Assembly (NCBI RefSeq): GCF_000189635.1 | Contig: NW_002476534.1 | Coordinates: 930,001 to 994,000, forward strand | Reading direction: 5' to 3' | Source: Tetrahymena thermophila SB210 | Taxonomy: Eukaryota > Ciliophora > Oligohymenophorea > Hymenostomatida > Tetrahymenidae | Length of the DNA: 64,000 nt | Shown: positions 689 through 43,666 of the stretch, piece by piece | How the letters are laid out: each line of letters opens with the position of its first letter | Position numbering within the stretch: position 1 is the stretch's first letter | The notes under the pieces: generated by a model | The model's database searches: none | What the model saw: only the letters and a program-made list of their open reading frames with translations | What the model was told of the DNA's origin: nothing | Program-made: the position numbers and the translations under genes

Positions 689-3600
689 TCAATAAAATCA
701 AATAATATAATCTTCAGTTTGATTTTGAAATGGATTTACCGATTTTTAGATTTTTCTATTTAGTTATTAAATATTGCTATTTATAAGTTTACATTAATTA
801 ATTTCTTAGGGATCAGCTCCATTTATGTATTGGTCATATAATATCAGTTTAAATTTATGTTTTTCATTTTATTCTTAGTTTTAGTGGAATACTTTATTTG
901 AATTACCTTCTGATTCACAGCTTTCAAATAAAATTGGAGAAAACTTTTCGATTGTATCATTTTCAGTATTTTTAGATATAGACTATATTTATTCTAAATC
1001 AGTGATTTATATATCACATAAAGCTTTCTACTGTATATTTTCATCATACTATTTTATTATTTTCAATTTAACTTAACGAATCATACAATTGTTGTTATCA
1101 AAAATGCAAACTTTTATTTTTTTATTACATTTTCTGGAAGGCACTGTTCCATAAAGAGTAATTAATTATTTTTCTATTTTAACTTTTAACCAAGATAGTA
1201 GTTATTAATTTTGGTGTGAAAAAATGGGTTAATAGTCCAATTTAAGTAACTTCTTTAGACACAATAATTTAGAATTGTTAGATTTGACATAAGCCTATAC
1301 TTTTTGAATTTAGTGTTCTTAAAGATGAATACTCTCTCCACTATTGGGATATAGTGAACTGTTTGTCGGATTTGCTATTCCAATAGCGTCTGAGATGATG
1401 TTATCTAAAATTAAGGATATATTTATTCCCAATTCATTAAAAATAGTTTACTAGTTTAGTTCATAGAAATTAATTAAAATATTTTTTTTCATGCTTTTTA
1501 GTAAAATATTAATAATTTTCATTAAATTTTATGTTTTTATTTAAATTTAAGGGATTATTTCTTCTTTCTGATTATGATTCTACTTCAAGACTGGATAAGA
1601 TTCTGAAACAAATTAAGTCCACTAGTTTGAAGACTTTTTATTACATATTTATGCTATTAACTTTATGAATTAGTAAACAATAAATGAACGTTTGTCTAAT
1701 TTTAGAATTTATTTAAAAAGAAGCCCAGATAAACAATTATATAGAATGCTCCCAGAATCATTTAACTCATTTTATAGTTATTTTGGATAAATTACCTTAC
1801 CCTATTAATTAATAGGTTGATTAGAAGTAAGTAAATCTTTAATAAAAGCTTTAGCATCTATTTCTTAGTTATTTGTGATATAATTTTTAAAGTTTTAATA
1901 GTTTATTTCTCTGATAAGAAAATTTTTTGAGTTTAAAACTCTTACTGTTCTCTTAATTATTGATTGAGCTTAGATATACTATTTTTTCAAAGGGAAAATA
2001 TCAATGATATCTGTATCACTATTCTAACCAATGCTATTTTCTTATGTTTCAAATTTTTTCAAGCTATATTTGAGAATATTACTCTTTAATTAACAACTGT
2101 TTACAGTTGATTATTGATTTATTGTTAAATTTTATGAAATTTAATTTTATTTTAGACCTTTTATAAATTCATTGAAAAGCTTTTGACCTATGATATAGCT
2201 GTCATCTACAACTATGAATTTTAAAACTAATTATTTATTTTATACAACATACTTTTTGCCTAATTAATTTTTGTTGCTAAATAACAAATTGAAAAATGAA
2301 TTCCAATACTTAAAAATTCCTAAGAAAAAAAGTAAAGGTCCTAACACTTAAAAAAATATATTTAAAAACACCTCGAATGATATGACAGTAGCTGTAACAC
2401 AAAAGGAATCAAATACCCAAGAATAAGTATCTGTTGCATTTACACCTAAGCAATATTCTCTTCCAAAATCTTAAGTAGATGTTTTTATATTAAACTTAAA
2501 CTACTGAGGATCGAATTATATCTCGCTTTGCTAAAAAGTTAATTCTTATTATTTATCATTTATTATATAGTAAGCTTAAAACTATAATTCATTGAAATTA
2601 GCATCGTTATAGGTATTAAAAGAAAACTATATATCTACTTATCTATTTATAGCAATCTGAGATTCATGATATTAGTTATTAACTTATACTTAGAGCTTAT
2701 TTTCAGGACTGATAGAAATAATTTTTTTAACTTAAAGTATTTTTGAGAGTTAATCGAATTAATATTCACAGCTAAAGTCATTATTTATTCCATCACTGAT
2801 CTAAATATTAATCTTTATGTTAGTATTTTTTTAATCATATAAATATATTTAAATTTATTGCTTCAATAGTTGATTTAAGCTTAATATATTTCCTTATAAT
2901 TAAATTTAATCCTACTTTTAAGATAAAGAAGTTACCACACTTGAATATAATCTATTAACAAATTTTCCATCTTATTAGTTAATAATAAATAAAATGCTTG
3001 CGGTTTGTGAATATGATTAAATATAATTATTTTCTAATGTGAAATCTACTTTTAATGATTTTTATAAAAGTAGATCAACTGGAGAATAAGTTAAGCTCAT
3101 CTACAAAACTCTTTAAATTTTCATTAATGCTTCATCAGTTAAATTAAGTCCATCAATATTTGGAGGAGTAAAAGTCTCATCTTCAGCAAATTGGTCAGAT
3201 ACTTGGTTCTTATTATTTATTACTCCTATATTTTTATATGCTAAAAAAATTTATTCACTCATATTTTCATTAATTACTATACTATCTGTAATTTCACTAT
3301 TATAAATAAATGAACTTTGAGAGAGAGCTAATTTAGTTACAAATACAACAGTCTATTGTGTAATATCGCTCTTTGTTTATTTTTATGTGCTAATACTTGT
3401 AAGCGAATCTTTGGTAATACTCAAAGTTAGAGTGCTTTAATAAATGTCAAATACCATCCAGGATGGTAAATCATATAAAATACCATCACTAACTAAATAA
3501 GCATTTGTTACTTGTGATCCTTAGATAGGATAAAGCGGATTAAGAGTTATCTAAATAGTTTGACCTACAGAAAGAATTTGATCTTTTTGCTTTAATCTTA

Positions 3601-5740
3601 TTAGACTTACAACACCTGTATTATATTTAACAATCTATGAAAACTCATAGTGAATTAAAATATTTTCTTTTATCGGAAATACCCTAACACCACCAGCATT
3701 TATAGCAAATAAAAAATTACAGCTACTTGTAACAGAAGAAACTGCAGCAAATTCATTTTTATATTAAAGTTAACTAATTAATTGTGGTGATTAAATAGGA
3801 CTAAGAGATACTAAAGCTGATTCTCCTCCGCTAAGCTAGCTAGTAATTAGAAATTGCTCATTCATAATAAGATTTAAAAAGTTAGTATATCCTCTAATTT
3901 AAACATTTGAAATAATTACTAAATTAGGGAGCTAATCTAAATCAATCACAGAAATTCCTTGCAAACCATCTGCAATGAACCCAAAATTTTTTTTATAAGT
4001 TCCTTAAACTAATTTTTCAGCTCCTAAAGAAGCAATTTTACTAGTAACAAAAGGGTTTATAAGGTCCGTAATATCTAAAGCACATATTGATATTGCCCTA
4101 AACATCAATATTATATATGGATAACCATTTAAAATAACCATATCAGTTATATCAACGGATTGATTATTAGATAAAGACAAAGGAATTTCATATAAAGAAA
4201 TTAAGCTAAATAAAATATTACCAGAAATTTGATAAAAAGCTAATTAATTTAAAATTTAACATGCAAAAAGTGTTTCATCTTATTTTATGGACATAGGATA
4301 GATATAAGCAGAAGTTTAAGATGCTATACGCTGCACAACTTATGGAAAAGTTTTGTTAGAAATATCATATACATCTAGAATATATCCAGCAGGATCTTAA
4401 ACAGGGACTATTAGGAATGTTTCGTTTCTGAGCAGCAAGATATTGTCGGCAGCTGAATTAAAAGGATAAGAAATAGTACTTAACACATATAAAGGTTGTT
4501 AAATACTAGTTTAGTTGAATTAAGCAATAACAACTCCTTAATTATTGCATGCTACAATTAGAGTTTTATCATCTTTTAGTAAAAGACTTCTCCAACCATA
4601 TGGTGTATTTAAGATAGAAGATAGAGTGGATTAATGCTTATTATACATATTAGGATAGTTCATCTATAAATTAGCCTGTTCCTTTTAATACACAAAAACA
4701 CTCATTTTAGTTGATAAGTATAAGTAAGAGAGGTTGTAGGATAGGATTAACTAAAATATGTCATCTTAGATTTGTATGAATTAGAACACTACAGGACTTA
4801 AAGTATTAGTAATATCGATCACATAAATGCCTGATGATCTTGCTCCAACATAGATTAAAGTTTATTCTAGGTTAATCTCTATAGTAGAGGAATATTGAAA
4901 TCCACCCTGTACCATCGACCAATTTAAAAGAGAAGGATTTAGCAGTATATTTGTTTTTCCCTACTCAAGTTAATCATTGAAATTAGTAAGATCAAATATA
5001 CTTATCCCTTTTAAATAGTCTTAACCAATTATATAGCTGTCATTTTTAAAAAGAATAAACTGATAAAAATTGACCTCAGCACATGAAGAAACCATTTAAA
5101 ATTAAATCGTGTTGCTGTTAAATTTGTTAAACTAGTAAATAAATAAGCCCTGAGAATTAGCGCTTATACATAACCATTTTTCGTCTTAAGAAATATGCAT
5201 ATCCAAAATTTACCATGAATTATTAAGTATTCCTTAAGCAATACTTAAGTCTACTAGTGAAATGATCTAAAAATTAACTTAATCTCTTATCAAATAGATT
5301 TTATCTTGTTTATAGTTAAGTGATAGAATGTTAAATTGAGATTAATGAGCATCTTAATAAACAATTTAAAATGCTTTTGCTTAGAAATTAAAACTTAAGA
5401 TAGTTAGAGTATTATTAAGCACAACAACTAGATATTGACCATCATTAGTTACTAAGAAGTTATCATTTAGAGAATACATAGATTAGTAAGTGCACACTTA
5501 ATTGAAGTTATTATTTTCATCCAAAACATTTATTGTATTTTCACCTTATTTAAAATAAATTAAACCTACTTTTTTAGCTATCGCAATTTATTTAAAGTAT
5601 AATTCTTTCGAAGTTGAATTGAAACTCTTAAATACAGTTGGGACATAAATTTCTTAAGTAACCTAAGAAATTGTGAAGTAAAGCAAATAATTTGCAATTA
5701 ATATTATATGAAATATACTTTTTTTGTTTATCTAAACCAT
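689..5740 (-). CDS. LVIVD-repeat / CADG-domain single-pass membrane protein, subfamily A copy 1
   Basis: A single open frame of 1,683 codons plus TGA in the ciliate code; no intron is needed. The start is the ATG at 5740, followed by a hydrophobic signal-like stretch (after MVQINKKS). Residues about 30-690 look like a beta-propeller of LVIVD-type repeats; one clear unit near residue 590 reads FIADGLQGISVIDL. A CADG-like strand motif, LPSWMVFD, lies near residue 755. One transmembrane helix at about 1125-1150 follows the conserved 'NATDSYSWV' motif. The tail of over 500 residues contains a second PSWL-type motif near 1515 and ends in EDYII. By family the role would be cell-surface binding or adhesion; no ligand can be inferred. 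Neighbour B1 lies 825 bp downstream of... its own 3' end precedes this start on the same strand, as in every A-B pair. The sampled lines show no in-frame TGA. Confidence 0.85.
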
Positions 5741-6565
5741 ACTAAATAATAAGTCTTTTTAATTCTACTTAAATTATTATCTTTTTTTTAATTTTGTTTT
5801 TCTTTTTGTTATTATTTTATCAAATTAAATGATTATTTTATGATCTTTTTAATCAATGATTTTTAAAAATAAATGCGTTTAAATTAAATGTTTACACATT
5901 TAAATAATAAACTAAAGTTGTACTGGAAACTAAATCCTAAAGGAGCGCTGTGTATAATTTAAATTTGAATGAAAATTTAAAAAAAACTTTATGTAAAACG
6001 AATATTGCTAAACATGTATTAAAATATGAAGAAAAGGGTGATATTATCTTTTATTATATGGATTATGCTTAATTTAAAATGAAAAAAGTATATTAAAGTA
6101 TTTTTTGAAAAAGAATGTAAAGGAATAAAATTTATACATTGAATATAATATATAAATATATAGTATAAAAAATATCCAAAAACATAATCAATATTTTTTC
6201 AAATTTTTGGGGGTTTTCATTTAGGGCACTTTTTTTTGAGCAAAAAAGATACTTAAGGAATGCCTTAATTAATGAGCATTTACAGTATTTTGAAAAAAAT
6301 AATTTTCCATAATTTTTTATTCTAAAAATATTTATAATTTAGAAAATTCTTAATTTATTTTATTTGTGATGATTTTTATTAAAATTTTGTGAGTTATACT
6401 TCTTTATTATTTATCTTATATTTTTAATAAATTATAGATCAAAAAAGGAAATAATTTTGATTTTTAAATTATAATATGCATCGATCTTACGAATAGGAGA
6501 GATTTTATATTTATAATATCAATAAAAACAAAAAAACATGCTAAATATAAATTAAAATAACAAAA
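5741..6565. other. Intergenic region between A1 start and B1 stop
   Basis: No gene. It holds the A-type upstream block (5943-6009) and a locally less AT-rich segment at about 6200-6290 with a G run, the 'tttagggcac' stretch and a short inverted repeat (aaggaatgcctt). That segment is missing from the equivalent A2-B2 spacer (21166-21852), so it may be an insertion. Confidence 0.6.
5943..6009 (-). promoter_or_regulatory. Conserved upstream block of A genes
   Basis: A block beginning 'gagcgctgtgtataattt' on the plus strand, about 200 bp upstream of the A1 start. It recurs with few changes at 21327-21390, about 160 bp upstream of A2, while the sequence around it has drifted. Conservation of a spacer block at a similar distance suggests a promoter or 5' UTR element, but shared recent ancestry could also explain it. 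Confidence 0.35.
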
Positions 6566-9500
6566 TCATTAATTTTAATCATTATGAGATAGTTTATTTT
6601 ATTTTACTAAAATTGATCTATTTATTTAAAATAATTATTTATTAGTCATTGAATCTGTATCAATAAGTTTTTCTTGAGAAAAAATTTAGATTGAATTCTG
6701 TTAGTTTAGCAAATTAGAATTTTTAAAATTATTTTTATTTTTTTATTTTTAAAATTGTGTACTTTAAGATTTTTGTTTATCTTTGAAACTAGAGTATTTT
6801 AATTATTGACTCTCTCCTTTATGAATAAATTACATTTCATTTTAAATTTAAGTTTCATCAAATTTTTCATCCTACTATTAAAGATTTTATTCTTTATTTT
6901 ATTTTATCTAAAATGAATGCTCTCTAATTATACAATTATTATTATTTTTAAAGCAAATTTTTATTTCTTCATAATGATTAGATTTAGGAATTTTTCCATA
7001 GATAGTGATTAATTATCTACTAATATCCATATTTAACCAAATTGGTATCTTCTAATTTTTTCTTGAAAGTAAATGCACGTATTTCTTTATGCAAATTTAA
7101 TTTTTTACATATTTTTTTTTTGTAAATAATTCAATTTTTTTAATATCCTAATCAAATAAATGTATCGATTCTCCACTATTTGGAAAGAGATTACTCTATG
7201 GAGGATTTGAGAGGCCAATCGAATCTGAAATAATGTTTTAGGTAATTAAATTTACATCTACTAGAAATTGAAGTTAACTTTTATTTTTATTTTCTTTAAA
7301 TAGATTATGAATTATTGCATTTAATAACTAATGATTAACTTGAACTTCAGGAAGTATTGTTTTATTATTACACTTTTTTTTCTAGATATTAAATTTGGTG
7401 TTGGTTAAAACAAAAAAAATTGGAAATGAATTAGTCTTTTAGATTATGTTACAAAACTCTTTAATATATTGATAAATTATTTAACAGTATTAATTCTTAT
7501 TAAGTATTTCTTTTAAAAGAATACCATACATGCAATTGTACATAATGCTGTCTTCATCTTCAAAGTCTTTTTTAAATTACTGTGGAAATAATTTCTTTTT
7601 GTTGTAGGAAATTGGTAAGTTAAATTACTTTAAATTAGCAAAAAATTTTTACTTATCAATCAAATTTTGATGATTAACATATTAATCGAATTCTTCATAA
7701 TTTCTTTTATATTTGCTTGATAATAATTTATCTAACTTCTTATTTACATTTATGATTAGATTTGATAACTTTTTTGAGTTAATATTATAAAATGATAAAA
7801 ATTCTTAATCTTTTGAATAATCTGTTTGTATTGATTAAAATAAAATATTATCTATTGAAGAATTTTTAAAATAGTTTTACTATATTTTTTAGATTTTAAG
7901 GTGTATTTTGAGTTTATTGAATAACTTTTTGCAAATTATATAACTATCATTTACTAAAATTATTTTTTAAATAAACTCTTAACCTGAAGTTAGTTAAACT
8001 TATTTGCACTTATTTTTCTTTGCAAATATTAAGTTGAAAAAAATATACCAGTATTTTAACAATCCTAAAAAGAATAAAGTAGATCCTAAATATTTAAACA
8101 TCCAATTTAAAAATAGCATCATAGATATTCCATTTGCTTTCACACAGAATTGATCTTGAACCCATGAGTATGAATCTGTAGCATTCAAAACAAAGCAAAA
8201 TGAATTTGTATAGTCAGATATTTGAGGCTTAATTACAAACATAAATTGTTAAGGAAAGAAACTTATTTCATCTATTTAAGATTTTACTGATATTAAATTA
8301 CCTCCTTTAATTTCAAAGGCTTAAATAGTGAGGTCTTTGAATTCTGTATATTCATATGTTTTAAAAGAAAATTAGATTGTATTTAAAGCATCAATGTAGA
8401 TTATAGAATCTGAGAACATTCTATTGACTTAAGCTTAAAGAGATTAAGTGCTTTAAATCTAAATGCTTTTTTTTATTTAGAATATATTTTGTATATCTTA
8501 ATACAAAAAAATTTAATCATATTAGTAGTTTATTTTGTCATCTAAAATTACTTATACTTTGCTTTTAGTGTATGTATTGCTATAAAAATAAACCTAAATC
8601 TATTGAGCTAGAATCTCATTTAAATAAGTAATGTCACCTTGCATTTGTATAACATCTTATTCTTTAGAAAATACGGTGATTACTCCAGGATAATTTTTTA
8701 AAACAAATTTTCCACTCATTTTGTCGATTTAAATTGATATGCTTGCTATTTTTGATACAGAGCTAATAATTTAAAAAGGATTTTTAAAGTTTACAATCAA
8801 AGAATTCTAAAGCAATAACTTTAGAGGTGAATAAACAACACTACTCTGTAAAATATTTTTTATAAAAACATATCCTTCGTTAGAAATGGTCATCTTACTG
8901 AGGGATGGTAAATCAAATGATTCATTTTAGCAAAATTCATCTGAAATTTAATTATATATATTTAGTATGTCGTAATTTTTTAAATACTAAAAAATTTATT
9001 TACTTTAAACATCAGTTATAATGTAAGAGCCAGTATTATTATCTTAATATATAAATGATGTTTCTGTAAGCTATACTTTAGTAACAAAAACAACATTATT
9101 AAAGTTTACCTATATATCTGTATTATTTTATTGAATTAACCCAGTTAAACTCTCTTTAGTTACATTTATATGTAGCTAATTTAAATGGTTATCATAAGAA
9201 AGCCATGAAGGAATAGTTAACAATTTATTATATTTGGCAAAATATATGTTAGTAATTCTTGCATTTTCTTGAGGGTAAATAGAATTTAAGGTAACTATTA
9301 AATTTTAGCCTACTTTTAAGATAAGATTTTCCATACTTTAGATTGTTTATTGTTATTAACCAGAGCCTGTATTTTGTAATAAAAAAAATTCAAAATTTAT
9401 AAGAATATTAGTTTTAATAGGGAATATCCTAATTCCTTGGGAGTTTAATATAAATAAATAATTTAAATCTTGGCTGATTTCAGTGGCTACAGATGATTCA

Positions 9501-11467
9501 TTTTCAAATTAAGTTTAGCCCATAATATAAGGCTCATTTATATTAAATATATTAATCAATTCTATTTAACCTCCACTTTGTTAGCTAGAAATGATATAAT
9601 TATCATTTTATAAAAGGCTTAAATTAACCTAATATCCATTTAAAGATATCTTTGTCATAATTACAATATTTGGTAATTAACGAAGATCAATGATTGAAAT
9701 ACCTTATTAACCATCAGCTATAAAGCAGAAATGGCTTTAATATGTTCCTTATATACCATAGACAGCGCCAAGTGACTCTTATACACTACTAATTTAAGGT
9801 TGATTCAAATTACTAATTTGTATGGCTGTTATTGACTACTCTTAAATTAAAACTAAAATGTAAGGGAATCCATTTAAAATAACAATTGAACTCTATTTTA
9901 CGATAGGAGAGGAATTAATATTGAATGTATTCAGATATTTAAATTATATGCTAGATACTTCATAGAACACTATGTTATTACCACTTTAAAATATAAACAG
10001 TGTTTCGTCTTTACTTAAGGTTATTGAATTTATGTCCTTATAGTCCAAAAGAATTCTATCCACTCTTTGAGGAGAAATTAAATTACTTAGATTGTAGATA
10101 TCAAAATAAAAACCATTTGGATCTTGAACAGATAAAATTAACAATTAACCATTCGAAAATATCAAAAAACTATCAAATTTATTAGAATAATTAATCTAAC
10201 TTACAATTTCTAAAGGTTAAAGTATAGAATTTAAATTTAACTTTAATACATTCAACCCATAACTTGAGCAACAAACTATCATATGTGAATTATCTGGAAG
10301 TAATTTTATTTGTTTGGTTTGAGATGTATCAATCACAGTTGATAAAATAGATGCGTGTTTGTTAAACAAATTTGGGTAGTTGTTTTGAAAATTTGCTTTT
10401 ACTTTTCTATAGACTAAAATCCTTTCTTTAGTTTAAATATAAACATAGGGGTTTTTATAAGATTCTATAATTTAAATTATATCCTCTTATATCTAAATGA
10501 GCTAAACTATCTAAGGCTATGAAGGATTTTATATGTCAAATATATAAAATCCAACTGATCTAAAAGCTACAAAAAGGAATGTTTCTTCTTAATTTATTTC
10601 AAGAGCTATAGAATAAGGAGCGTAAGTTTAATCAGTCCACCAATTTAAAAGTAGAGTATTAATTTGAATGTTACTTTATCCTGAATCTTTTAATTTATCT
10701 AATTCAGTTATGTCTAAAATTGAAAAACCAATCCAATAGTTTATAGTAATTAGTATAGAATTATTTTTAATTAGTAAATAATTATATTAATTAACCAATG
10801 TATTTGTGCATGCAAGTTTCAACGAAATTTAATTCTAGTATAAAGAGATAATTTAGTAAAAAAATATACCAATTCCATCTTAGCTTAAACAAATCCAAGA
10901 GTCATCATAAGAAACAAAAAAGGAAATAACATCTTATTGTTAATCTAGCTAACCTTTTTAAATAGCAAAATCATTAAGTGAAATAATAATTAGATCAATT
11001 GAATCTTTTATCATATAGACTCTGTTTTATTATTAATTTAAAGTTGCTATATTTATTTATTGTTAAGAGTTGCTATCCTAGTAAATTTAAGCTAATTATT
11101 TTTGATTAATATCAAATGTGAAAATGGTTAATTTATTAGAAATATTAAAAATCAAATATTTTGCATCTCTTAAAACTAAAGCTGAACCCAGTACATCCTC
11201 ATCAAATTTGTAAGTGAAAATAATATGATGCTAATTATTTTCATCCATAATATAGAGTTATCTATTTCCTTATCTTACAATCAATAGTCCTACATCTTTG
11301 GCTAATTGAATATCTTCAAAGTATAAAGAAGAAGATTCTGCCTAAAATTATTTGTAAATACTTGATGAATAAATTTCAGTTAATTATTAAGATGAGCAAC
11401 CACCTAAAATAAAAAATTATATTGACACAATATTTAGCAAAAATCCAAAAAATGTATTTTTCATCAT
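6566..11467 (-). CDS. LVIVD-repeat / CADG-domain single-pass membrane protein, subfamily B copy 1
   Basis: Open frame of 1,633 codons plus TGA, intronless. Two adjacent ATGs open the gene (11467 and 11464). They are followed by a hydrophobic leader ending in an LGGCSS motif, which looks lipoprotein-like but in a eukaryote is more simply a signal peptide. Residues about 30-690 form the LVIVD-type propeller, with units such as FYIFDIQNPSQPQIV and FCFIADGQQGISIIDL. A CADG-like IPSWLSYD lies near 752. The motif NATDSYSWVQDQFCV precedes one transmembrane helix (about 1115-1145, rich in F and L). The tail of about 490 residues is Lys/Asn/Gln-rich, with PIWLNMDISRQLITIYG near 1476. Paralogue of A with the same architecture. 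Part of the propeller region (9861-10333) is identical to B2. Confidence 0.85.
9861..10333 (-). repeat. Gene-conversion tract shared with B2 (25157-25629)
   Basis: By eye this 473-bp stretch inside B1 has no mismatch with 25157-25629 inside B2. Differences resume at once on both sides (g9860 against a25156; c10334 against t25630). B3 differs at many sites over the same stretch. A homogenised block inside otherwise diverged paralogues is the usual mark of gene conversion. Confidence 0.7.
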
Positions 11468-11608
11468 TTTGTAAATTTTTGATTGGTGGTTTTTTTTCTT
11501 AATTTATGCTAGAGCTATTATTAATTAGTTTTTTTATTATTTAAAATCAATAAAAAAAATATACAAATTGATCTATACTAATCATCAAGTATATTTTTGC
11601 TATTAAGA

Positions 11609-11651
11609 GACTTTAACTTTTTCTATTTAAATAAGTAGAAGAAGTTTGTTT
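11609..11651 (-). promoter_or_regulatory. Conserved upstream block of B genes (B1 copy)
   Basis: The plus-strand core is 'ataagtagaagaagtttgtt', preceded by 'ctttaactttttct'. Near-identical copies lie at 26902-26944 (upstream of B2) and 37971-38013 (upstream of B3). The near edge is 142, 139 and 134 bp from the ATG. Flanking spacer has diverged more, so a promoter or 5' UTR role is plausible, though unproven. Confidence 0.4.
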
Positions 11652-12180
11652 CATAGAAATTTAGAATGATAATTACATTATTAAAATTTGAATTCAATAG
11701 TAGATAAGTGTATATTTTTTAAGTGTTGCTAAACTATAAATTCAATAACTAATTCTTTTAAATAAAATTAATTAAAATATAGTGTGCTTTTAAAATATTA
11801 TTGTATGACTAATCAAAGTTAAATTGTTAGTTTTATTTATTAAAATTTCTAAATACTATTTCAAAAAATTAAAAATAAAATGAAAACAAATAAATGAATT
11901 AAATATATGTGATTTTATTAAATAAAAATTTTTTATTTAAGTTAAAAATAATTAATCTTTAATCAAATAAAGTAATATTTTAATCTCTGTTAATAAATAA
12001 ATAAAAAAATTAATTAATTTTTTCAAAGAATTTCTTTTAAACCGTTAAAGAAGAATATAGTTAATGTTTAAGAGATATAATTTCAATTATCTTTGAAATA
12101 TATTTTTTAAATAAATTCTTTACTAAGAAGAATTTAAAAATATGACATATAAATAAAAAATTAAAATGAAATAAAAATGT

Positions 12181-30500: not shown

Positions 30501-32501
30501 TAAGGATGAAGCAGCTGCAAATTCATTTTTGTATTAAAGTTAGCTAATAAATTGAGGAGATTTTATAGCGCTCATACTTACTAACGACAATTCTCCTCCA
30601 CTTAGCTGACTTGTAATTATAAATTATTCTTTCACAATAAGATTCAAAAAATTGGTATACCCACTAATTTAAACATTTGAAATAATTACTATTTTAGGAA
30701 GTTAAGTTAAGTCAATAACAGAAATCCCTTACAAACCATCTGCAATAAAACAATAATTTCTTTAATATGTACCTTAAATTATTTGTTCAGCTCCTAGAGA
30801 ATCAATATTACTTGCAATAAAAGGTTTTTAGACATCTGAAATATCTAAAGCTGCTATTGTTAATGCTCTAAATAGTAAAATTACATATGGAAAGCCATTC
30901 AAAATAACCATATCATTGGTTTAAACTGTTGAAAGAGATTATGGAATACTAAATGAAGAGATCAAGTTAAATGAGATGTTACCAGAGACAATATAAAAAG
31001 CCAATTAATTTAGGTTTTGGCAACCAAAAAGTGTTTCATCTTATTTTTTTGACATCGAATAAATGTAAGCAGATGTCTAAGAAGGTATACGTTGCACAAC
31101 TTTTGGAGATGTTTTGTTAGAAATATCATAGACATCTATGATGTATCCACTAGGATCTTATACAGGAACTAAGAGGAATGTTTCTTCTCTGAACAACATA
31201 ATGTTGTCAGAATATGTTAAAAAAGGGTAAGAAATGGTACTGAGTACCTATAATGGTATTTATATACTAGTTTAGTTGAATTAAGCAATGACAACTCCAT
31301 ATTTAGAGCATGTTACTATTAGCGTTTTTTCATCTTTTAGCAAAAGACTTCTCCAACCATATGGAGTATTTAAGATAGAAGAAAGAGTGGATTAATGCTT
31401 ATTATACAAATTAGGATAACTCATCTAAAGATTAACTTGATCCTTTTAATATACTACAACACTCTTTTTTGTTGATAAGTATAGGTAAGAGAGGTTGTAG
31501 GATAGGATTAATTAAAATATATCTTCTTAAATTTGAATAAGTTAGAATACTACTGGATTTAAAATATTAGTAATGTCTACAGCGTAAATGCCTGATGATC
31601 TCGCTCCAACATATATCAAAGACTATTCTTGGTTAATTTCAATAGTAGATGAATAAGGAAACCCACCCTATACCATCCACCAGTTTATAACTGGGGTATT
31701 TAGCTAAATGTTTGTGTTTCCCTAGTTAAGCTCCTAAGCAAAAGTTGTTAGATCGAAAATACTTATTCCCTACCAATAATCTAAACCTATTATGTATTTG
31801 TCGTTTTTGAATAGGATGAACTGGTAAAAGTTGACATTTGAATTTGAAGATACTTATGAAAATTAAATTGTAGAGTTATCAGATTTATTAATCTAATAAA
31901 AAAATAGACCTTATGTATTAGCGCTTACACTCAGCCATTTCTCATCATTAGAAATATGCATATCCAAAACTTACCATTAGTTATTAAGAATTCCTTTAGC
32001 TATGCTAAAGTCTACTAGCGAAATAATCTAAAAATTAACTTAATCTCTAATTAAGTAAATTTTATTTTGCTACTAGTTGAGAGATAGAATGTTAAATTGA
32101 GATTATTAAACATCTGTAAACAAAATTGAGAGGATTTTTGTTTTAAGATTAAATTCTAATATTTTTAAGAAATTCTCAAGAACAACAATTAAGAATTTAC
32201 CATCATCAGATACTAAGAAATTGTCTTTTAATTAGCCTTGAGGTTAATAAGAGCACAGCTAATTAAAGTTATTATTCTCATCATAAATGTTAATCGTACT
32301 TTAGCCTTATTTAAAATAAATTAACCCTGCTTTTTTAGCGACCGCAATCTACTTAAAATATTGTTAATTAGATGTTGATTCGAAATTCTTAAATATAGTT
32401 GACACATAAATTTCTTTTATAGCCAATGAAACTGTTGTTTTTATCAACACAAATAAGGCTAATGCAAGAATCAGTACTGTTTTTAAAGATTTCTGAACCA
32501 T
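27517..32501 (-). pseudogene. Subfamily A' LVIVD/CADG membrane protein gene broken by one 28-bp deletion
   Basis: Full-length A' gene: ATG at 32501, signal-like stretch after MVQKSLKT, propeller units (YVGARSSGIYAVDI near residue 300, FIADGLQGISVIDL near 590), CADG modules, SYSWV motif, transmembrane helix and tail. Against A'2 it lacks 28 bp at about 30,339-30,345, where 'ggattg' joins 'aaagaattt'. This shifts the frame. The upstream frame then meets TGA at 30219-30221, predicting a 760-residue product with the propeller but no helix. The downstream frame is open to TGA at 27517. The single lesion and otherwise good conservation mean a young break, an assembly error, or a secreted variant. 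Confidence 0.75.
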
Positions 32502-32923
32502 AAGAATTAATAACTATTAATGTTAATTACAATTATTTTTTAAATTTTTTTCTTTTAGCTAATTATCTATTATTGCCTTTATTCTTAATGCTTTTTAATC
32601 TGTTGTTTGCTTTAAATTATAAAGTTTTTGACTTTAATTTTTTTTTTAAGTTTTAAACCTTAACATTATAATAGTCTTTAAGAAGACACCTCACCCAAAT
32701 TTTTTTTTCAGATGCACCCATTTCACATATAAAACAAAGAAATTTAAAATATTATAAAAGTGAATTTTATGTTAACTGGGCTAAAACTGCTCATCTCTAT
32801 TATTTTCTTTCTTAACTTGTTTGTTGATAAGAAAATGTAATTTAATAGAAATTTATTTAATTTTATTATGAATTCGAACAAAAACCACATAGTAAATATA
32901 AATGAAGAAGACAAAATAATATA
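32502..32923. other. Intergenic region between A'1 start and B3 stop
   Basis: No gene. About 32,680-32,730 is unusually rich in C ('acacctcacccaaat', 'gatgcacccattt'). The part from about 32,760 on has a diverged copy upstream of pseudo-B (12,330-12,700). Confidence 0.6.
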
Positions 32924-35900
32924 TCATTTATTTTGAGTCAAATCCTATAATTTATTTTATTTAACTAAAATTAATCTCTTTATTTAAATTAATTATCTAT
33001 CTGTCATTTAATCTGAATCAGTAAGTTATGTAATTTATTCTTGGGATTACATTATGTTTTAATTGTTTTAGTTTAGGAAATTAGAGTTCTTTAAACTATT
33101 TTTATTTTATTATATTTAAATCCATGTATTTTTAGATGTTTGCTTTTCTTTGAAACTAGATTATTTTAATAATTGACTCTCACCTTTATGATTAAGTTAT
33201 ATTTAATTTTAAATTTAAGTTTCCTCAAATTTTCATTCCTACTATAAATGATTTTACTCTTTATTTTATTCTATCTATATTATATGCTCTCTTACGATAC
33301 AATTTTTATTGTTAAAAATGCAAATTTTTATTTCTTCATAATGATTTGATTTTGGGATTTTTCCATTTAAAGTGATCAATTGTCTGCTAATATTCATATT
33401 TAACCAAATTGGTAGGTTTTAATTTTTTCTTGAAAGTAAAGACACGTATTACTGTTTGCAAATTTAATTTTTTACATATTTTTTTTTTACAAATAATTCA
33501 ATTTTTTTTATATCCTAATCTAATAAATGTATAGATTATCCATTATTTGGAAAGAGATTACTCTATGGAGGATTTGAGAGGCCGATCGTATCTGAAATAA
33601 TGTTTTAGGTAATTAAATTTATATCTAATAAAAATTAAAGTTAGCTTTTATTTTTATTATCTTTTAATAGCTTATGAATTATTGCATTTAATAACTAAAG
33701 GTTAACTTGAACTTCAGGAATTATTGTTTAATTTTTATGCTATTTTTTCTAGATATTAAATTTGATCTTGGTTAAAACCAAAAAAATTTAAAAAGTATTA
33801 GTTTTTTAGATTATGTTGCAAAACTCTTTAATATATTGATAAATTATTTAACAAAATTAATTCTTATTAAGTATTTCTTTTAAAAGAATACCATATATGC
33901 AATTATATATAATGCTATCTTCATCTTCTAAATCTTTTTTAAATTATTATGGAGATAACTTTTTTTTGTTGTAGGATATTTGTAAGTTTGATTTCTCAAA
34001 ATCAGCAAAAAACTTTTACTTATCAATACAGTTTTGATGATTAATATACTAATCAAATTCTTCATAGCTTCCTTTGTATTTGCTTTTTATACATTTATCT
34101 AACTTCTTATTTACATTTATGATTAAATTTGATAACTTTTTTGAGTTAATATTTTAAAATGATAAAAATTCTTTATCTTTTGAATAATCTGTTTCTCTAT
34201 TTAGCTATGATTAACATAAAATATTATCTTTTTAAGAATTTTAAATATAGTCTTACTATTTTTTTTAGGTTTTAAGCTATTGTTTGAATTTATTGAAAAG
34301 CTTTTTGCAAATTATATAACTATCATTTACTAAGATTATTTTTTAAGTAAATTCTTAACCTGAAGATAGCTAAACTTCTTTGTACTTATTTTTCTTTGCA
34401 AATATTAAATTAAAAAGAAGATACCAGTATTTTAATAATCCTATAAAGAATAAAGTAGATCCTAAATATTTAAACATCCAGTTTAAAAATAATATCATAG
34501 ATATACCTTTTGCTTTAACACAAAATTGATCTTGAACCCAAGAGTATGAATTTGTAGCATTCACAATAAAGCAAAATGAACTACTATAGTCAGATATTTG
34601 AGGCTTAATTATAAACATTAATTATTAAGGAAAGAAACTTATTTCATCTATTTAAGCACTTAGAGATTTTAAATTACCTCCTTTAATTTCAAAGGCTTAA
34701 AAAGTGAGGTCTTTAAAATCTGTATATTCATATGTGTTGAAAGAAAATTAGATTGTATTTAAAGTATCAATGTAGATGATAGAATCAGAGAAAATTCTAT
34801 TTACTTAAGCTTAAAAAGATTAAGTGCTTTAAATCTAAATGTTTTTTTTTATCTAGAATATATTTTGTATATCTTAATACAAAAAAAATTAGTCATATTA
34901 ATAGTTTATTTTATCATCTAAAATTACTTCTACATTGCTTTTAGTGTATGTATTGCTATAAAAATAAACCAAAATCTATTGAGTTAGAATCTGATTTAAA
35001 TAAATAATTTCACCTTCTAATTGTAGCATATCTTAATCTTTCGAAAATAAGGTGATTACTCCAGGATAATTTTTTAAAACAAATTTTCCACTTATTTTGT
35101 CGATTTAAATTGACATGCTTGCTATTTTTGATACAGAACTAATAATTTAAAAAGGATTTTTAAAGTTTACAATCAATGAATTCTAAAGCAATAACTTTAG
35201 AGGGGAATAAACAACACTACTCTGTAAAATATTTCTTATAACAATATATCCTTCATTAGAAATGGTCATCTTACTGAGGGATGGTAAATCAAATGATTCA
35301 TTTTAGCAAAATTAATCTGAAATTTAATTTTAGCCATTTAGTATGTTGTAATTTTTGAAATACTAAAAAATTTATTTACTTTATACATCAGTAATTATGT
35401 AAGAGCCAGTATTATTATCTTAATATATAAATGATGTTTCTGTAAGCTATACTTTAGTAACAAAAACAACATTATTAAAGTTTATCTATATATTTGTATT
35501 ATTATTTTGAATTAACCCAGTTAAACTTTCTTTAGTTACATTTATCTGTAGCTAATTTAAATGGTTATCAAAAGAAAGCCAAGAAGGAAGAGTTTGCAAT
35601 TTATATTATTGGACAAAATATGCGTTTGTAATTGCTGCATTTTTTTGAGGATAGATAGAAGTTAAGGTAACTATTAAATTTTAGCCTACTTCTAAGATAA
35701 GATTTTCCGTACCTTGCATTGTTTATTATTATTAACCAGAGTTTGTATCTTGTAATAAAGAAAATTCAAAATTTATAAGAAAGCTAGTTTTAATAGGTAA
35801 TATCCTAATTCCTTTGGAACTCAATATAAATAAATAATTTAAATCTTAGCTGATTTCAGTAGCTACAGATGATTCATTTTCAAATTAAGTTTAGCTCATA

Positions 35901-37837
35901 ATATAAGGCTCATTTATATTAAATATATTAATCAATTCTATTTAACCTCCACTTTGTTAGCTAGAAATAATATAGTTATCATTTTATAAAAGGATTAAAT
36001 TAACCTAATATCCGTTTAAAGATATCTTTGTCATAATTACAATATTTGGTAATTCGCGAAGATCAATGATTGAAATACCTTATTAACCATCAGCTATAAA
36101 ACAGAAATGGCTTTAATATGTTCCTTATATACCATAGACAGCGCCAAGTGACTCTTATACACTACTAATTTAAGGTTCATTCAAATTACTAATTTGTATG
36201 GCTGTTATTGACTACTCTTAAATTAAAACTAAAATGTAAGGGAATTCATTCAAAATAACAATTGAACTCTATTGTACAATAGGAGAAGAATTAATATTGA
36301 ATGTATTCAGATATTTAAATTATATGCTAGATACTTCATAGAACACTAAGTTATTACCACTTTAAAATACAAATAGTGTTTCATCTTTACTTAAAGTTAT
36401 TGAATTTATGTCCTTATAGTCCAAAATAATTCTTTGCACTCTTTGAGGAGAAATTAAATTACCTAGATCGTAGATATCAAAATAAAAACTATTTGGATCT
36501 TGAACAGATAAAATTAATAATTAACCATTCGAAAATATCAAAAAACTGTCCAATTTACTAGAATAATTAATCTAACTTACAATTTCTAAAGGTTAAAGTA
36601 TAGAATTTAACTTTAACTTTAATATATTCAAACCATTACTTGAGCAACAAACTATCATATGTGAATTATCTGGAAGTAATTTTATTTGTTTGGTTTGAGA
36701 TGTGTCAATCAAAGTTGATAAAATAGATGCATGTTTGTTAAACAAATTTGGGTAGTTGTTTTGAAAATTAGCTTTTACTTTTTTATAGACTAGAATCCTT
36801 TTTTTAGTTTAAATATAAACATAGGGATTTTTATAAGATTGTATAATTTAAATTATATCTTTTTATATCTAAATGAGCTAAACTATCTAAGGCTATGAAG
36901 GATTTTATATGTCAAATATATAAAATCCAACTGATCTGAAAGCTACAAAAAGGAATGTTTCTTCTAAATTTATTTCAAGAGCATTAGAATAAGGAGCATA
37001 AGTAGAATCAATCCACCAATTTAAAAGTAGAGCCTTCATTTGAATGTTACTTTATCCTGAATCAATTGATTTAGCTAATTCAGTTATGTCGAAAATTGAA
37101 ATACCAATCCAATAGTCTATAGTAATTAGTATTGAATCATTTTTAATTAGCAAATAGTTGTATGAATTAATCAATGTATTTGTGCAAGCAAGTCTCAAAA
37201 AAATTTAATTCTAGCCTAAAGAGATAATTTAGTAAAACATTATACCGACTGCATCTTAGCTTAAACAAATCCAAGAGTCATCAGAAGAAACAAAAAAGGA
37301 AATAACAACTTATTGTTAATCTAGTTAACCTTTTTAAATAGCAAAATCTTTAAGGGAAATAATATATAGATCAATTGAATCTTTTATAACATAGACTTTG
37401 CTTTATTTTTAATTTAAAGTAACTACATTTATTTATTATTAAGAACTGTTATCCTAGTAAATTTAGGCTAATTATTTTTGATGAATATCAAATGTGAAAA
37501 TGGTTAATTTATTAGAGACATTGAAAATAAAATATTTTGAATCTCTTGAAACCAAGGTTGAACCCAGTACATCCTCATCAAATTTGTAAGTGAAAATATT
37601 AAGATGCTAATTATTTTCATCCATAATATAGAGTTATCTATTTCCTTATCTTACAATCAATAGTCCTACATCTTTGGCTAATTGAATATCTTCAAAGTAT
37701 AAAGAAGAAGATTCCGCCTAAAATTATTTGTAAATGCTTGATGAATAAATTTCAGTTAATTAATAAGATGAGCAACCTGAAATAAAAAATTATATTTACA
37801 CAATATTTAGCAAAAATCCAAAAAATTTATTTTTCAT
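32924..37837 (-). CDS. LVIVD-repeat / CADG-domain single-pass membrane protein, subfamily B copy 3
   Basis: Open frame of 1,637 codons plus TGA, intronless. There is a single ATG at 37837 (the second ATG of B1 and B2 is not present in tandem). The leader runs from MKNKFFGF to a 'FISGCSS' end. Propeller repeats come next, then the CADG-like region, 'NATNSYSWVQDQFCV' near residue 1090, one transmembrane helix and a long polar tail. It is the most diverged of the intact B genes at the C-terminus and 3' flank, where it matches pseudo-B best. This places it as the second B of the four-gene block. Function is inferred only as a cell-surface propeller/CADG protein. Confidence 0.85.
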
Positions 37838-38617
37838 TATTTTGAAAATTTTTGATTGGTGTTTTTTTCTTAATTTATGTTATGAGCCTTGATAATTAGT
37901 TTTTACTGCTTCAAAAAAAATCTAAAAAAAAAAATTAATCAAATTGATCAAATAAATTCTCAATTTTTAATAACTTAACTTTTTCTATTAAAGTAAGTAG
38001 AAGAAGTTTGTTTCTTTAGAAAAATAGATTGATAATTACATTTTTTAAATAAGAATTTATTAGTATATGTGTGTAAATTATTTAAGCATTCCTACATGAT
38101 AAATTCAATCGCTAATTGACAATTAAATAAGATTGATTAAAATACCAATGTACTTTTAATATACTTTAAAATTACTTATCAAAATTACATAATTAATTTT
38201 ATATCTTTATAATTCTGAATACCACTTCAAAAAATTAGAAATAAAATGTAAAATTAATAAATCATTTACTTGTGGTTTAATTATAAAATTTTTTAAATAA
38301 AAACTAATTAATCTTTGATCTAATAAAAATGAATATTATACTTTCAATTTAAATGTGTAATGCCCCATTTTAATTAAATTAAGCACTTAAATGATAAAAT
38401 CACCCAGTGATATTTTGATTTATTTTAAATAAAAAAATTAATTAACTTTTTGCAAGAAGGTCTTTTAAATTATCAGACAAGAATATTCCTATTGTTTAAG
38501 AGATATTATTCCTATTTTTTTTGAAATAAATTTTATAAACAAATTGTTAGCTTATAAGAATTAACTATTTATAGAGACATAAAATAAAAAAATACAAAGA
38601 AATATTAATTTTTATAT
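37838..38617. other. Intergenic region between B3 start and A'2 stop
   Basis: No gene. Contains the B upstream block (37971-38013) and AT-rich spacer that aligns with 11,468-12,180 and 26,764-27,516. Confidence 0.6.
37971..38013 (-). promoter_or_regulatory. Conserved upstream block of B genes (B3 copy)
   Basis: Third copy of the 'gtagaagaagtttgttt' block, 134 bp upstream of the B3 ATG. Confidence 0.4.
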
Positions 38618-41600
38618 TCATTCTAAAGTATCAACATTGTTATTAATTAACAAAGGATTTATTGATTTTGTGATAGTTCTATTTAGCTATAAAACATTAC
38701 TTTTATATAGCGAGCTTTGGGCTTTAACACTAAACTAGCTTTCTGAGCAATATTATTCAAATGAGATAACTCTAAAGTTATTTTTAGATAAAATTGGTTA
38801 ATTTTCTGTTTGCTTAGTCTAATTACCTTCGCTTTACATATTTTCAAGTAGTTTTAATTTTGTTGGTGATTATTTATCTCTTACTTCACTATAACCATAT
38901 TTATTAAGAGGCAAAGCTTATTCTGATTCAAGAATAGAAATATCATCTGATATGTTAAGCTAAGATTTTTAATTATTTTTGTTGCTTAGTATTTCTAATA
39001 TGACTTCTCTAACTATGCATTCATTATTGTCGAAAATACAAATCTTTAACTTATTATAATTTTGGCTTTATGGAGCAATTCCATAAAGAGTTATTAGTTA
39101 TTTTTCTATTTTAATTTTTAGCCAACTAGGTAATTATTAATTTTTGTGAGAAAATAAAGGCTAATACTCCATATTTAAAAACTTCTTTAGACAAAATGTT
39201 TTAGAGTTCTTAGATTTCATATATGCTTACACTTTTTTAATTTTGTGTTCTAAGAGGTGTATACTCTCTCCACTATTAGGATATAGTGAACTGTTTGTTG
39301 GTTTAACTATACCAATAGCATCTGTAATGATATTGTCAATTATTAATCCTAAGTCTACTCCCAATAGTTATTTTATATTTACTGCATTTAGTTCATAAGA
39401 ATTTAATAGAACATTCTTTTTCATACTTAACAGCAAAATGTTAAATATTTTCAATAGATTTTCATCTTTTATTTATATATAAGGAATTATTTATTCTTCA
39501 TTATACTTCTTTTACTTTAATATTGGAAAAGACTCAGTTAAAAATTCAGTCCATTATTTTTATGAATTTTTATTGCATAATTAAGCGATTTATTTTATTA
39601 ATTAATAAACAACAAATGTGCGTTTATTTAATTTTAAAAATTATTAAATAAGAAGTCCAGACAAGCAGTTATAGAGAACGCTTCCAGAATCATTAAGCTC
39701 ATTTTATAGCTACTTAGGATAAATAACCTTTCCTTCATAATTAATTGGCTTGTTTGAAGTATATAAATCAGTAATAAATGTTTTTATATCAATAGTTTAA
39801 TTATTGGTTAAGTAGATAGAAAATTTCTAGTAATTAATCTCTTTATTCATGAAACTTTTACTATTTAAAATTCTTGTAGTTTTTTGAAGAACCTATCTAG
39901 CTTTATCATTTTATTCTTTTGTAAATGCAAAATCATTAATTTACATTTCTTGTTTATCATCGCTTGAATTTTATTATAATATTTCATCTTTTTTTAAAGT
40001 TAATTTTAGAATGTCACTCTTTAATAGCGAACTATTGTGGGGTGATTAACACCTTTAAATTAATTTTTGAGCTATTGTTTTTTCTGGTATATTTTTTACA
40101 TATTCATTGAAAAGTTTTTAACCTATCAAATAAGAATCATTAACTACAATAAATTTTAGCACAAATTATTTGTTTTCTTCAATCTACTTTTTTCCTAACA
40201 AATTTTATTTGTTAAAGAACATATTAAAAAGCGAATTCCAATACTTGAATACACCTAAGAAAAACAATAAAGGTCCAAGCACTTATACAAATATATTCAA
40301 AAACACAAGAAATGAAATGACAGATGCTGTTACGCAAAATGAGTCCATAGCCCAAGAATAAGAATCTGTTGCATTGATAGCTAAGCAGTACTTTCTTCCA
40401 AAGTCTGAAGTTGATGTTTTAATATAAAATTTAAACTATTAAGGAGTGAATTAAATTTCATTTTGCTAATTAGTTAAAGGTATGTATTGATCATTATCAA
40501 AGTAAAAGGCTTAAAATTGTAACTCATTAAAGTTCGCGTAGTTAAATGTATTCAAAGAAAACTCTATATCAACTTAACTATCTATTTAAATTTGAGATCC
40601 TGGATATTAATTATTAATTTAGTTTTATAATTTATTTTCTGGACTAATAGAAAGATCTTTTTTTATTTACAATATTTTAGATAGTTAATCAAATGTATAG
40701 GTGTCTATATAGTCATTATTTATTCCATCGCTTACTTAAATTTGAATGTTAATATTTCTACTGCTTTTATCATAGAGGTATATTTAAATTTATTGCTAAA
40801 GGAGTTAATTTAAGCTTTTAATATTTCCTTGTAATTAGATTTAATCCTACTTCTCTGTTAAAGAAGTTACAACACTAGAATATAGTCTATTAACAAATTT
40901 ACCATCTTTTTAATTAATAGTAAATAAAATACTAACAGATGGAGAATATGATTAAATATAATTATTATCTTATGTGAAATCTATTATTAATGATTTTTGC
41001 AATAGTAGATCAACTGGAGAATATGTTATGCTCATCTATAGCACTTTTTTGATTTTCAAGATTGCATCATCAGTTAAATTTAATCCAGTAATCGTAGGAG
41101 GAGTAAAAGTTTCATCTTCAGCAAATGAATCTGAAACTTAGTTCAAATGATTTATGGTGCCCATATTCTTATAGGCAATAAAAATTTGTTAACTCATATT
41201 TTGGCTAATTGTAACATTCCCTGTAAGTTCATTTGTAAAAGCAAATGAATTTTAGGTAAGAGGTAATTTAGTTACAAATACAACGGTTTGCTTTGTAATA
41301 TCATTATTGTTTAAGCTGTTTGCTTTAATTACATTAAGCGAATCCTTGGTAATACTCAAAGTTAGTGTGCTTTAATAGATATCAAATACCATCCAAGAAG
41401 GTAAATCATATAAAATACCATCTCTTACAAAATAAGCACTTGTTATTTATGATCCAGATATAGGATATAGTGGATTTAAAGTGATCTAAATAGTTTGCCC
41501 TACAGACAGAATTTAGTCTACTTGCTTTAATCTTATTAGATTTATAACACCTGTACTATCTTTAACAACCTATGAAAACTCATAATGAATAAAGATATTA

Positions 41601-43666
41601 GCTTTTATTGGAATTATCCTAACACCACCAGCATTTATAGCAAATAAGTAACTTAAGTCGCTTGTTAAGGATGAAGCAGCTGCAAATTCACTTTTGTATT
41701 AAAGTTAACTAAGAAATTGAGGAGATTTTATTGAGCTCATACTTACTAAGGATGATTCTCCTCCACTTAGCTGGCTTGTAATTATAAATTATTCTTTCAC
41801 AATAGGATTCAAAAAATTGGTATACCCACTAATTTAAACATTTGAAATTATTACTATTTTAGGGAGTTAGGTTAAGTCAATAACAGAAATTCCTTACAAA
41901 CCATCTGCAACAAAACAATAATTTCTTTAATATGTACCTTAAATTACTTGTTCAGCTCCGAGAGAATCAATATTACTTGCAATAAAAGGTTTTTAGACAT
42001 CTGAAATATCTAAAGCTGCTATTGTTAATGCTCTAAAAAGTAAAATAACGTATGGAAAACCATTCAAAATAGCCATATCGTTGGTTTGAACTGTTGAAAG
42101 AGCTTATGGGATACTAAATGAAGAGATCAATTTAAATGAGATGTTACCAGAGATATTATAAAAGACCAATTAATTTAGGTTTTGGCAGCCAAAAAGTGTT
42201 TCATCTTATTTTTTAGACATAGAATAGATATAAGCAGATGTTGAAGAAGCTATACGTTGTACAACTTTTGGAGAAGTTTTGTTAGAAATATCATAGACAT
42301 CTATGATATATCCACTAGGATCTTATACAGGAACTAAGAGGAATGTTTCGTTTCTAAATAGCATTATGTTGTCAGTATATGTTAAAAAAGGGTAGGAAAT
42401 TGTACTGAGTACCTATAATGGTAATTATATACTAGTTTAGTTGAATTATGCGATGACAACTCCATAGTTAGAGCATGTTACTATTAGCGTTATATCATCT
42501 TTTAGTAAAAGACTTCTCCAACCATATGGAGTATTTAAGATAGAAGAAAGAGTGGATTAATGCTTATTATACAAATTAGGATAACTCATCTATAGATTAA
42601 CCTGATCTTTTTCATATACTAAAACACTCTTTTTTGTTGATAAGTATAGGTAAGAGAGGTTGTAGGATAGGATTAACTAAAATATATCATCTTAAATCTA
42701 AATAAGTTAGAACACTACTGGATTTAAAATATTAGTAATGTCTACAGCGTATATGCCTGATGATCTCGCTCCTACATATATCAAAGACTATTCTTGGTTA
42801 ATTTCAATAGTAGATGAATAAGGAAACCCACCCTATACCATCCACCAGTTTATAACTGGGGTATTTAGCTAAATGTTTGTGTTTCCCTAGTTAAGCTCCT
42901 AAGCAAAAGTTGTTAGATCAAATATACTTATTCCCTACCAATAATCTAAGCCTATTATGTATTTGTCGTTTTTGAATAGGATGAACTGGTAAAAATTGAC
43001 ATTTGAATTTGAGGAAACTTATGTAAATTAAATTGTAGAGTTATCAGATTTATTAATCTAATAAAAAAATAGACCTTATGTATTAGCGCTTACACTCAGC
43101 CATTTCTCATCATTAGAAATATGCATATCCAAAACTTACCATTAGTTATTAAGAGTTCCTTTAGCTATGCTAAAGTCTACTAGCGAAATAATCTAAAAAT
43201 TAACTTAATCTCTAATTAAGTAAATTTTATTTTGCTACTAGTTGAGAGATAGAATGTTAAATTGAGATTATTAAACATCTGTAAACAAAATAGAGAGGGT
43301 TTTTGTTTTATGATCAAATTCTAATATATTTAAGAAATTCTAAAGGACAACAATTAAGAATTTACCATCATCAGATACTAAGAAACTGTCTTTTAATTAG
43401 CCTTGAGGTTAATAAGTGCACAGCTAATTAAAGTTATCATTCTCATCATAAATGTTAATAGTACTTAAGCCTTGCTTAAAATAAATTAACCCTGCTTTTT
43501 TAGCAACCGCAATCTACTTAAAATATTGTTAATTAGATGTTGATTCGAAGTTCTTAAATATCGTTGGCACATAAATTTCTTTAATAGCAAACGAAGCCGT
43601 AACTTTTATCCAAACAAAAAAGATGCATCCAAGAATCAGTACTGTTTTAAAAGACTTCTGAATCAT
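38618..43666 (-). CDS. LVIVD-repeat / CADG-domain single-pass membrane protein, subfamily A' copy 2
   Basis: Open frame of 1,682 codons plus TGA, intronless, the intact member of the A' pair. ATG at 43666 begins MIQKSFKTVLIL, a signal peptide. LVIVD-type propeller units occupy about residues 30-690. A CADG-like LPSW motif lies near 755, the juxtamembrane SYSWV motif and single helix at about 1110-1150, and a PSWL-type motif near 1520 in the tail. It retains the 28 bp missing in A'1, which shows that the break there is a deletion and not an ancestral gap. It is the 5'-most gene of the array; the flank beyond it (from about 43,800) has no counterpart in the window. Surface role inferred. Confidence 0.85.

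Follow-up and report, generated by a model that had tools for sequence, protein, structure and literature searches.

A tandem array of alternating paralogous genes in Tetrahymena thermophila: probable growth by multi-gene segment duplication and partial decay

Results

A 64,000-nucleotide stretch of the Tetrahymena thermophila SB210 genome (the window: positions 930001-994000 of the 1,040,923-base contig NW_002476534.1, assembly GCF_000189635.1) carries an array in which two types of long gene, A and B, alternate. The array is probably one locus of a family of large membrane proteins that has grown by duplication of multi-gene segments and has since partly decayed, the alternation of A and B being a by-product of this growth. 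From left to right, and all on the minus strand, the order is A1, B1, a remnant of an A' gene, psiB, A2, B2, A'p, B3 and A'3 (Table 1). A sequence-only reading of the same DNA had proposed that a four-gene block A-B-A'-B was duplicated as a whole and then trimmed in its left copy; its labels are taken to correspond to A1 and A2 (A), A'p and A'3 (A'), psiB (pseudo-B) and B1, B2 and B3 as given here.

The repeats in the array are far beyond chance. The [B2 A'p] and [B3 A'3] segments form one continuous direct match, 90.2% over 10.9 kb, across genes and spacer. The left and right copies of a 12-kb block match in pieces (435-6005 with 15859-21390 at 91.5%, 6534-12241 with 21821-27566 at 90.3%), and their A-B spacer has diverged. 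Similarity that is contiguous over genes and spacers and in direct order identifies tandem segmental duplication. The expected separation of A from A' is decisive: with the flanks included, 959 informative sites join A1 to A2 and A'p to A'3, against 13 and 17 for the other two arrangements. Strict alternation of A and B holds if the A' remnant of about 50 bp is counted; otherwise B1 and psiB are direct neighbours.

A multi-gene block was indeed copied, as the sequence-only reading held, but it comprised about 3.5 genes (A-B-A'-half B) and not four, because the likeness of psiB to B (B3) stops at 15380-15420, close to where the left flank of A2 starts matching that of A1 (15596, matching position 100). 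A tandem duplication with its right edge inside the second B accounts for both edges at once. The bases from about 15420 to 15526 resemble neither side, so that the junction is not base-exact, which weighs against this account.

The trimming of the left copy is borne out. About 50 bp of an A' 3' end lie at the close of the flank upstream of B1: in comparisons with the 3' ends of the A-type genes, the region 12180-12262 (of which 23 bases overlap the leucine-rich repeat (LRR)-like part discussed below) gave z-scores of 12.3 for A'3, 4.3 for A'p, 2.5 for A1 and 2.7 for A2. The DNA adjoining psiB resembles the A'p-B3 spacer (z 8.2) and not the right flank of A'3 (z -0.0); its B-proximal part, 12398-12558, is in addition similar to the A1-B1 (z 13.7) and A2-B2 (z 5.6) spacers. 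Since remnants of an A' 3' end and of an A'-B spacer sit either side of the gap, the left copy once held an A' gene.

It is very improbable that the array or its broken members are an assembly artefact. The copies are alike, and no telomeric sequence lies in the final 200 bases of the contig, which would suit such an explanation, but the copies differ by about 8-20%, with distinct indels and scars, there are no N letters in the window, and the contig opens with CCCCAA telomere repeats over its first 200 bases. Because of these repeats, the DNA is taken to be somatic (macronuclear). The long frames are open solely under the ciliate code (table 6), in which TGA is the only stop; for this reason prokaryotic gene finding under table 11 returned no open reading frame (ORF) of 150 aa in the window. 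No tRNA was found there by ARAGORN. Gene starts were placed at a Met common to the copies, ahead of an N-terminal hydrophobic stretch.

Table 1. Features of the A/B array, in window coordinates
Feature	Position	Strand	State or basis
A1	698..5740	-	intact single open frame, 1680 aa
B1	6566..11467	-	intact, 1633 aa
A' 3'-end remnant (gene lost)	12190..12241	-	similarity to A' 3' ends
Fragment like Tetrahymena 90-bp LRR exon, at A' deletion scar	12240..12326	-	genome matches and translation
A'-B spacer remnant	12309..12422	.	matches 32740-32861, z 8.2; first 18 bases overlap LRR-like part
psiB, second-slot B pseudogene, 5'-truncated	12600..15385 (approximate limits)	-	several frame pieces
Dispersed repeat like a miniature inverted-repeat transposable element (MITE), end portion, at block junction	15526..15612	.	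genome matches
A2	16147..21165	-	intact, 1672 aa
B2	21853..26763	-	intact, 1636 aa
A'p, broken A' copy	27517..32501	-	28-bp frameshifting deletion after 30339
Former B3 C-terminus	32924..33232	-	102 codons open past early TGA, then stop
B3	33233..37837	-	1534 aa, early in-frame TGA
A'3	38618..43666	-	intact, 1682 aa
Left copy of block duplication (A-B-A'end)	100..12241	.	similarity blocks
Right copy of block duplication	15596..27566	.	similarity blocks
[B2 A'p] copy of two-gene duplication	21828..32630	.	similarity blocks
[B3 A'3] copy of two-gene duplication	32892..43797	.	similarity blocks

Some further details concern the damaged members. psiB holds a 37-bp tandem duplication at 13878-13952, and A'p shows two gaps of 33 and 3 bases relative to A'3 besides its frameshifting deletion. 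The early TGA of B3 may reflect a recent nonsense change, a sequencing error or readthrough.

The array looks complete here, because family members used as tblastn queries detected no additional relative in 50 kb of flanks (five pieces of 10 kb) or in the part of the window beyond 43850 on the right, where the ORF at 45410-46681 (minus strand) is not of the family. Farther right, at 48465-57458 and 60990-64000 and running on into the right flank, giant cysteine-rich proteins are encoded by a further tandem array on the plus strand; the first of these proteins matches Pfam VSP (6.8e-40) and also GF_recep_IV, and the longest matches between copies in this further array are 77-90% alike. The left flank of the A/B array (piece L005, 2-4354) contains another frame with a cysteine-rich start. 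Cysteine-rich protein genes thus seem to border the A/B array on both sides.

Divergence at synonymous sites (dS) is 0.142 for A1-A2, 0.117 for B1-B2, 0.147 for B2-B3 and 0.157 for B1-B3. It rises to 0.88-0.95 between A and A' and to 1.43-1.65, near saturation, between A and B. The two pieces of A'p, read apart, gave 0.169 and 0.281 against A'3; together with the B2-B3 value, this makes the [B A'] duplication look at least as old as the block duplication. Pairwise ratios of nonsynonymous to synonymous divergence (dN/dS) of 0.21-0.48 within A and within B indicate purifying selection. The pieces of A'p retain low values against A'3 (0.19 and 0.25), and A'p has therefore probably decayed recently. 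For the former tail of B3 (99 codons), dN/dS is 0.79 against B2 and 0.93 against B1. In the C-terminal tails of the intact B1 (6566-6869) and B2 (21853-22156), dN (0.066) exceeds dS (0.017) over 104 codons; the changes are few and this is a hint only.

Discussion

The similarity blocks, scars and divergence values suggest the following history. An ancestral gene would have given rise to A and B, and A then to A', so that the locus read A-B-A'; this beginning is suggested by the divergence. The [B A'] pair would next have been duplicated in tandem, giving A-B-A'-B-A'. A segment that started just past the 3' end of A and stopped midway through the second B would then have been duplicated in tandem, its junction placing half a B (psiB) beside a new A. 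Later, A' would have been deleted from the left copy, an 86-bp LRR-exon-like fragment coming to lie in the scar. Finally, a short deletion would have broken A'p, B3 would have gained its early stop, and homogenisation probably affected parts of B2 and B3. The evidence for the two duplications and the loss of A' lies in similarity blocks and scars; we infer their order and the mechanism of crossing-over.

By these dS values, the second-slot B would have arisen long after A and A' split, barring homogenisation of the B genes, and a four-gene unit as an ancient pairing is not shown. The same contrast between B and A/A' counts against the history just outlined, as it leaves room for an [A B] to [A B][A' B'] origin with homogenised B. 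In the fullest form of this alternative, an [A B] unit was copied several times and gene conversion evened out the B copies, with no separate [B A'] event. The dS of 0.12-0.16 among B genes against about 0.9 for A/A' would agree with it, as would a mosaic signal along B and the 98% identity of B2 and B3 in two 250-base bins. However, the continuous 10.9-kb match over gene and spacer is more simply explained by one duplication. We regard repeated copying of [A B] with gene conversion as possible but rather doubtful, and prefer the separate duplication of [B A'].

The mosaic also limits what can be said of the B slots. The sequence-only reading had separated first-slot B (B1, B2) from second-slot B (psiB, B3). 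The grouping stands in the 3' 1.2 kb and spacer only, while the B body leaves the slots undecided. For the 3' part and spacer (B2 21640-22889), informative sites favour it by 37:6:1, the approximately unbiased (AU) test gives p 0.0008 for each alternative tree, and a 9-bp insertion is common to psiB and B3. For the body (B2 22890-24889) the sites are 15:18:12, and the AU test (B2 22890-24639) allows all three trees. The two parts differ significantly (chi-square p 4.5e-6); over the whole alignment the sites are 57:28:16. Neither sum includes the outermost 3' bin or the bins 5' of B2 24890, for which psiB lacks a genuine counterpart; the slot test covers the 3' half only, psiB being without the 5' half of B. 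Moreover, the 5' flanks are 80.7% alike for B2/B3, 77.1% for B1/B2 and 73.8% for B1/B3. Like the indecisive body, this is at odds with a simple order of events. Homogenisation of B2 and B3 or a faster-evolving B1 flank would explain the flank pattern, neither being proven; the B2-B3 dS, which falls to 0.023 in a 150-column window (alignment columns 900-1050), favours homogenisation.

A and B had been taken for two different membrane proteins whose persistent pairing suggested that their products may work together. They are paralogues instead, alignable over their full length (A1 and B2 are identical in 605 of 1634 aligned columns, 37%). Within their own genome (101,022,631 bases in 445 contigs; genome match counts, here and below, are lower bounds, as only the best candidates were scored), relatives of the family occur at no fewer than 23 loci outside the array, 20 from one search and three more from a second. 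At 21 of the 22 outside loci examined there is a single open frame, 1,669-1,966 codons long from stop to stop, and at the C123 locus one of 1,224; the C142b frame runs into the end of the examined piece. A tree was built from 28 proteins (six window genes and 22 of the 23 outside loci, leaving aside the second C22 locus, psiB and A'p). In it, A forms one clade, B another, and A and B together a third, all at 100/100. The sister clades and the 37% identity point to common ancestry of A and B. The tree tool warned of long branches around the A+B join, and the join therefore rests also on pairwise scores: A2 scores 909-931 bits against the B genes, the next best match outside the array reaching 402 bits. 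A search of the open-licence literature found no paper on the A/B family. This family of long single open frames, with its propeller and Cadg-like resemblance, may be undescribed.

Could A and B nevertheless be obligate partners in a heteromer, kept paired by selection through the duplications? The alternation is strict once the A' remnant is counted, three intact A-type genes remain beside two fully intact and one shortened B-type, and both A and B are under purifying selection. However, copying segments that hold both genes produces alternation without any selection for it, and A and B are themselves paralogues. The array has also been losing members: A'p and psiB are lost and the C-terminus of B3 is damaged, so that no fixed A:B stoichiometry appears to be protected. 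Moreover, in three of the five multi-gene clusters placed in the tree the neighbours are plain sisters (C9a/b, C142a/b and C335a/b); of the others, C35 is unresolved with C105 and the C253 neighbours are not sisters. We therefore consider an obligate A-B partnership unlikely, and the by-product of segment duplication remains our preferred explanation of the alternation.

Several known systems invite comparison. In the study of Xiong et al. (2019, PMC6564038), tandem duplicates in Tetrahymena are ascribed to unequal crossing over. The tandem arrays treated there resemble the present one in consisting of tandem duplicates, and the fragment in the A' scar is like the 90-bp LRR exons, but that study centres on LRR genes with 90-bp exons, whereas A and B are long single open frames, alternating and propeller/Cadg-like. 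The Ser immobilisation antigens are surface proteins whose genes stand in the T. thermophila macronuclear (MAC) genome in tandem arrays that often hold a single subtype (PMC4136848); they are cysteine-rich and glycosylphosphatidylinositol (GPI)-anchored, whereas A and B are cysteine-poor with a likely transmembrane (TM) segment. Identity with Ser was rejected, as A/B proteins have 6-9 Cys in 1110 residues and a polar C-terminus instead of repeated cysteine blocks and a C-terminal GPI signal. Finally, the mating-type genes MTA and MTB encode two different large membrane proteins and form repeated pairs in a germline array, and MTB was co-purified with MTA, according to two reports (PMC3608545, PMC10901506). 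Unlike those pairs, the A/B array lies on one strand, has no GFR match and is present in several copies in the somatic genome. Identity with MTA/MTB was rejected on three counts: all array genes are on the minus strand and not in head-to-head pairs; by hydropathy the proteins show a single best TM segment, around 1120-1150, with weaker stretches besides, against five TM helices; and there are 6-9 Cys in the first 1110 residues with no GFR match, against a cysteine-rich GFR domain.

The scars themselves contain dispersed sequences. The 86-bp fragment at 12240-12326, exactly at the site of the missing A', has at least 114 other matches in the genome, counted after removing its own site and a match to a different part of the query from a total of 116; many of them follow one another at spacings of about 300-386 bp. 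On the minus strand its frame YYQIGDQGTLGLSSALANCTNFS (..IGDQGTLGLSSALANCTNFS) matches an exon-like frame KNKIGDQDSQGLSSALANCTNLS at the genome locus L048, with 88.5% DNA identity over 87 bp, bases ahead of the frame included; only a fragment is present. It is the sole such match in the window. Within 284,873 bases (the window and non-duplicate loci, after setting aside 14 loci that duplicate the window or other loci), strong matches occur only at its own site and at L048, a locus chosen for its match; L045 contains weak matches. From the published description given next, we take the fragment to be a putative LRR exon piece. Thousands of 90-bp LRR exons have been described in arrays in Tetrahymena (Xiong et al. 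2019, PMC6564038).

At the block junction, 15526-15612 is the end of a repeat with at least about 40 other genome matches (46 of all kinds in one search, 40 in another). In one of five other copies examined (L049, 78-546) it forms both ends of a palindromic unit of about 470 bp, and loci L044-L047 contain a single repeat end only. Such repeats may have caused the breaks or been captured in their repair; a single locus fits both. The LRR-like piece may alternatively be ancestral and later lost from the B3 side. A tentative idea, which we hold somewhat less probable than its contrary, is that an LRR exon fragment was picked up when a chromosome break was repaired and took the place of the lost A'.

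As to function, features of the six window proteins were read by hydropathy rather than by signal-peptide, TM or GPI predictors. All six begin with a hydrophobic stretch resembling a signal peptide, whose best 19-residue mean is 1.52-2.2 in five of them. The first 1,110 residues or so contain 11-13 N-glycosylation sequons and 6-9 Cys, and the best TM segment, near 1119-1150 (hydropathy 1.71-2.36), is followed by a tail of about 390-540 residues. From these features and the domain resemblances given below, the A/B proteins are most likely at the cell surface. Against this, the N-terminal stretch of A2 is weak (1.21), and in five of the six proteins a stretch near 523-543 reaches 1.53-1.91, little under the TM segment.

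A family profile (a 21-row alignment of four window and 17 of the 22 outside members) was compared with PDB. It matched WD40 proteins (best E 1.5e-4, in the first 250 positions or so) and alpha/beta-dystroglycan at 1033-1119, just ahead of the likely TM segment (alpha-dystroglycan 8uf4, E 0.0065; 8yt8, E 0.014). At E 0.01, Pfam matches among the 21 members were LVIVD in 8, the THOC3 propeller in 7 and He_PIG in 6. Weak as they are, these matches point to WD40/LVIVD-like propellers and, ahead of the likely TM segment, to a dystroglycan/Cadg-like domain, which recalls the juxtamembrane domain of dystroglycan. Dystroglycan is not known to have a propeller, unlike the propeller-like A/B proteins. 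Several results tell against the domain assignments. The dystroglycan/Cadg likeness appeared, weakly, in the family profile and not as a curated domain score in B2, A'3 or A2. At 0.01, Pfam gave no match for A2, three single proteins (B2, A'3 and A2) had none at the curated cut-offs of Pfam and NCBIfam (LVIVD being sub-threshold only), and phmmer of A'3 against PDB gave no match. Both AlphaFold models, of six window sequences each, are poor (mean predicted local distance difference test (pLDDT) 35.0 and 38.2), so the domain calls rest on weak profile matches, and WD40-type matches are easily gained. Judging from domain resemblance of this kind, an adhesion or recognition role at the cell surface is our best guess, with about an even chance.

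Conclusions

The A/B array is a case of ordinary birth-and-death evolution with unusually readable scars: a record of paralogous membrane-protein genes multiplying and decaying in a ciliate. It also cautions against reading a partnership into the strict alternation of two genes. If an LRR exon fragment was indeed captured at the lost A', the scar would be a snapshot of 90-bp LRR exons spreading by DNA-level repair, and their spread would not proceed only through crossing over within LRR genes or retrotransposition. Should the fragment reflect a general repair process, the dispersal of LRR exons would be directly testable by surveying indel scars.

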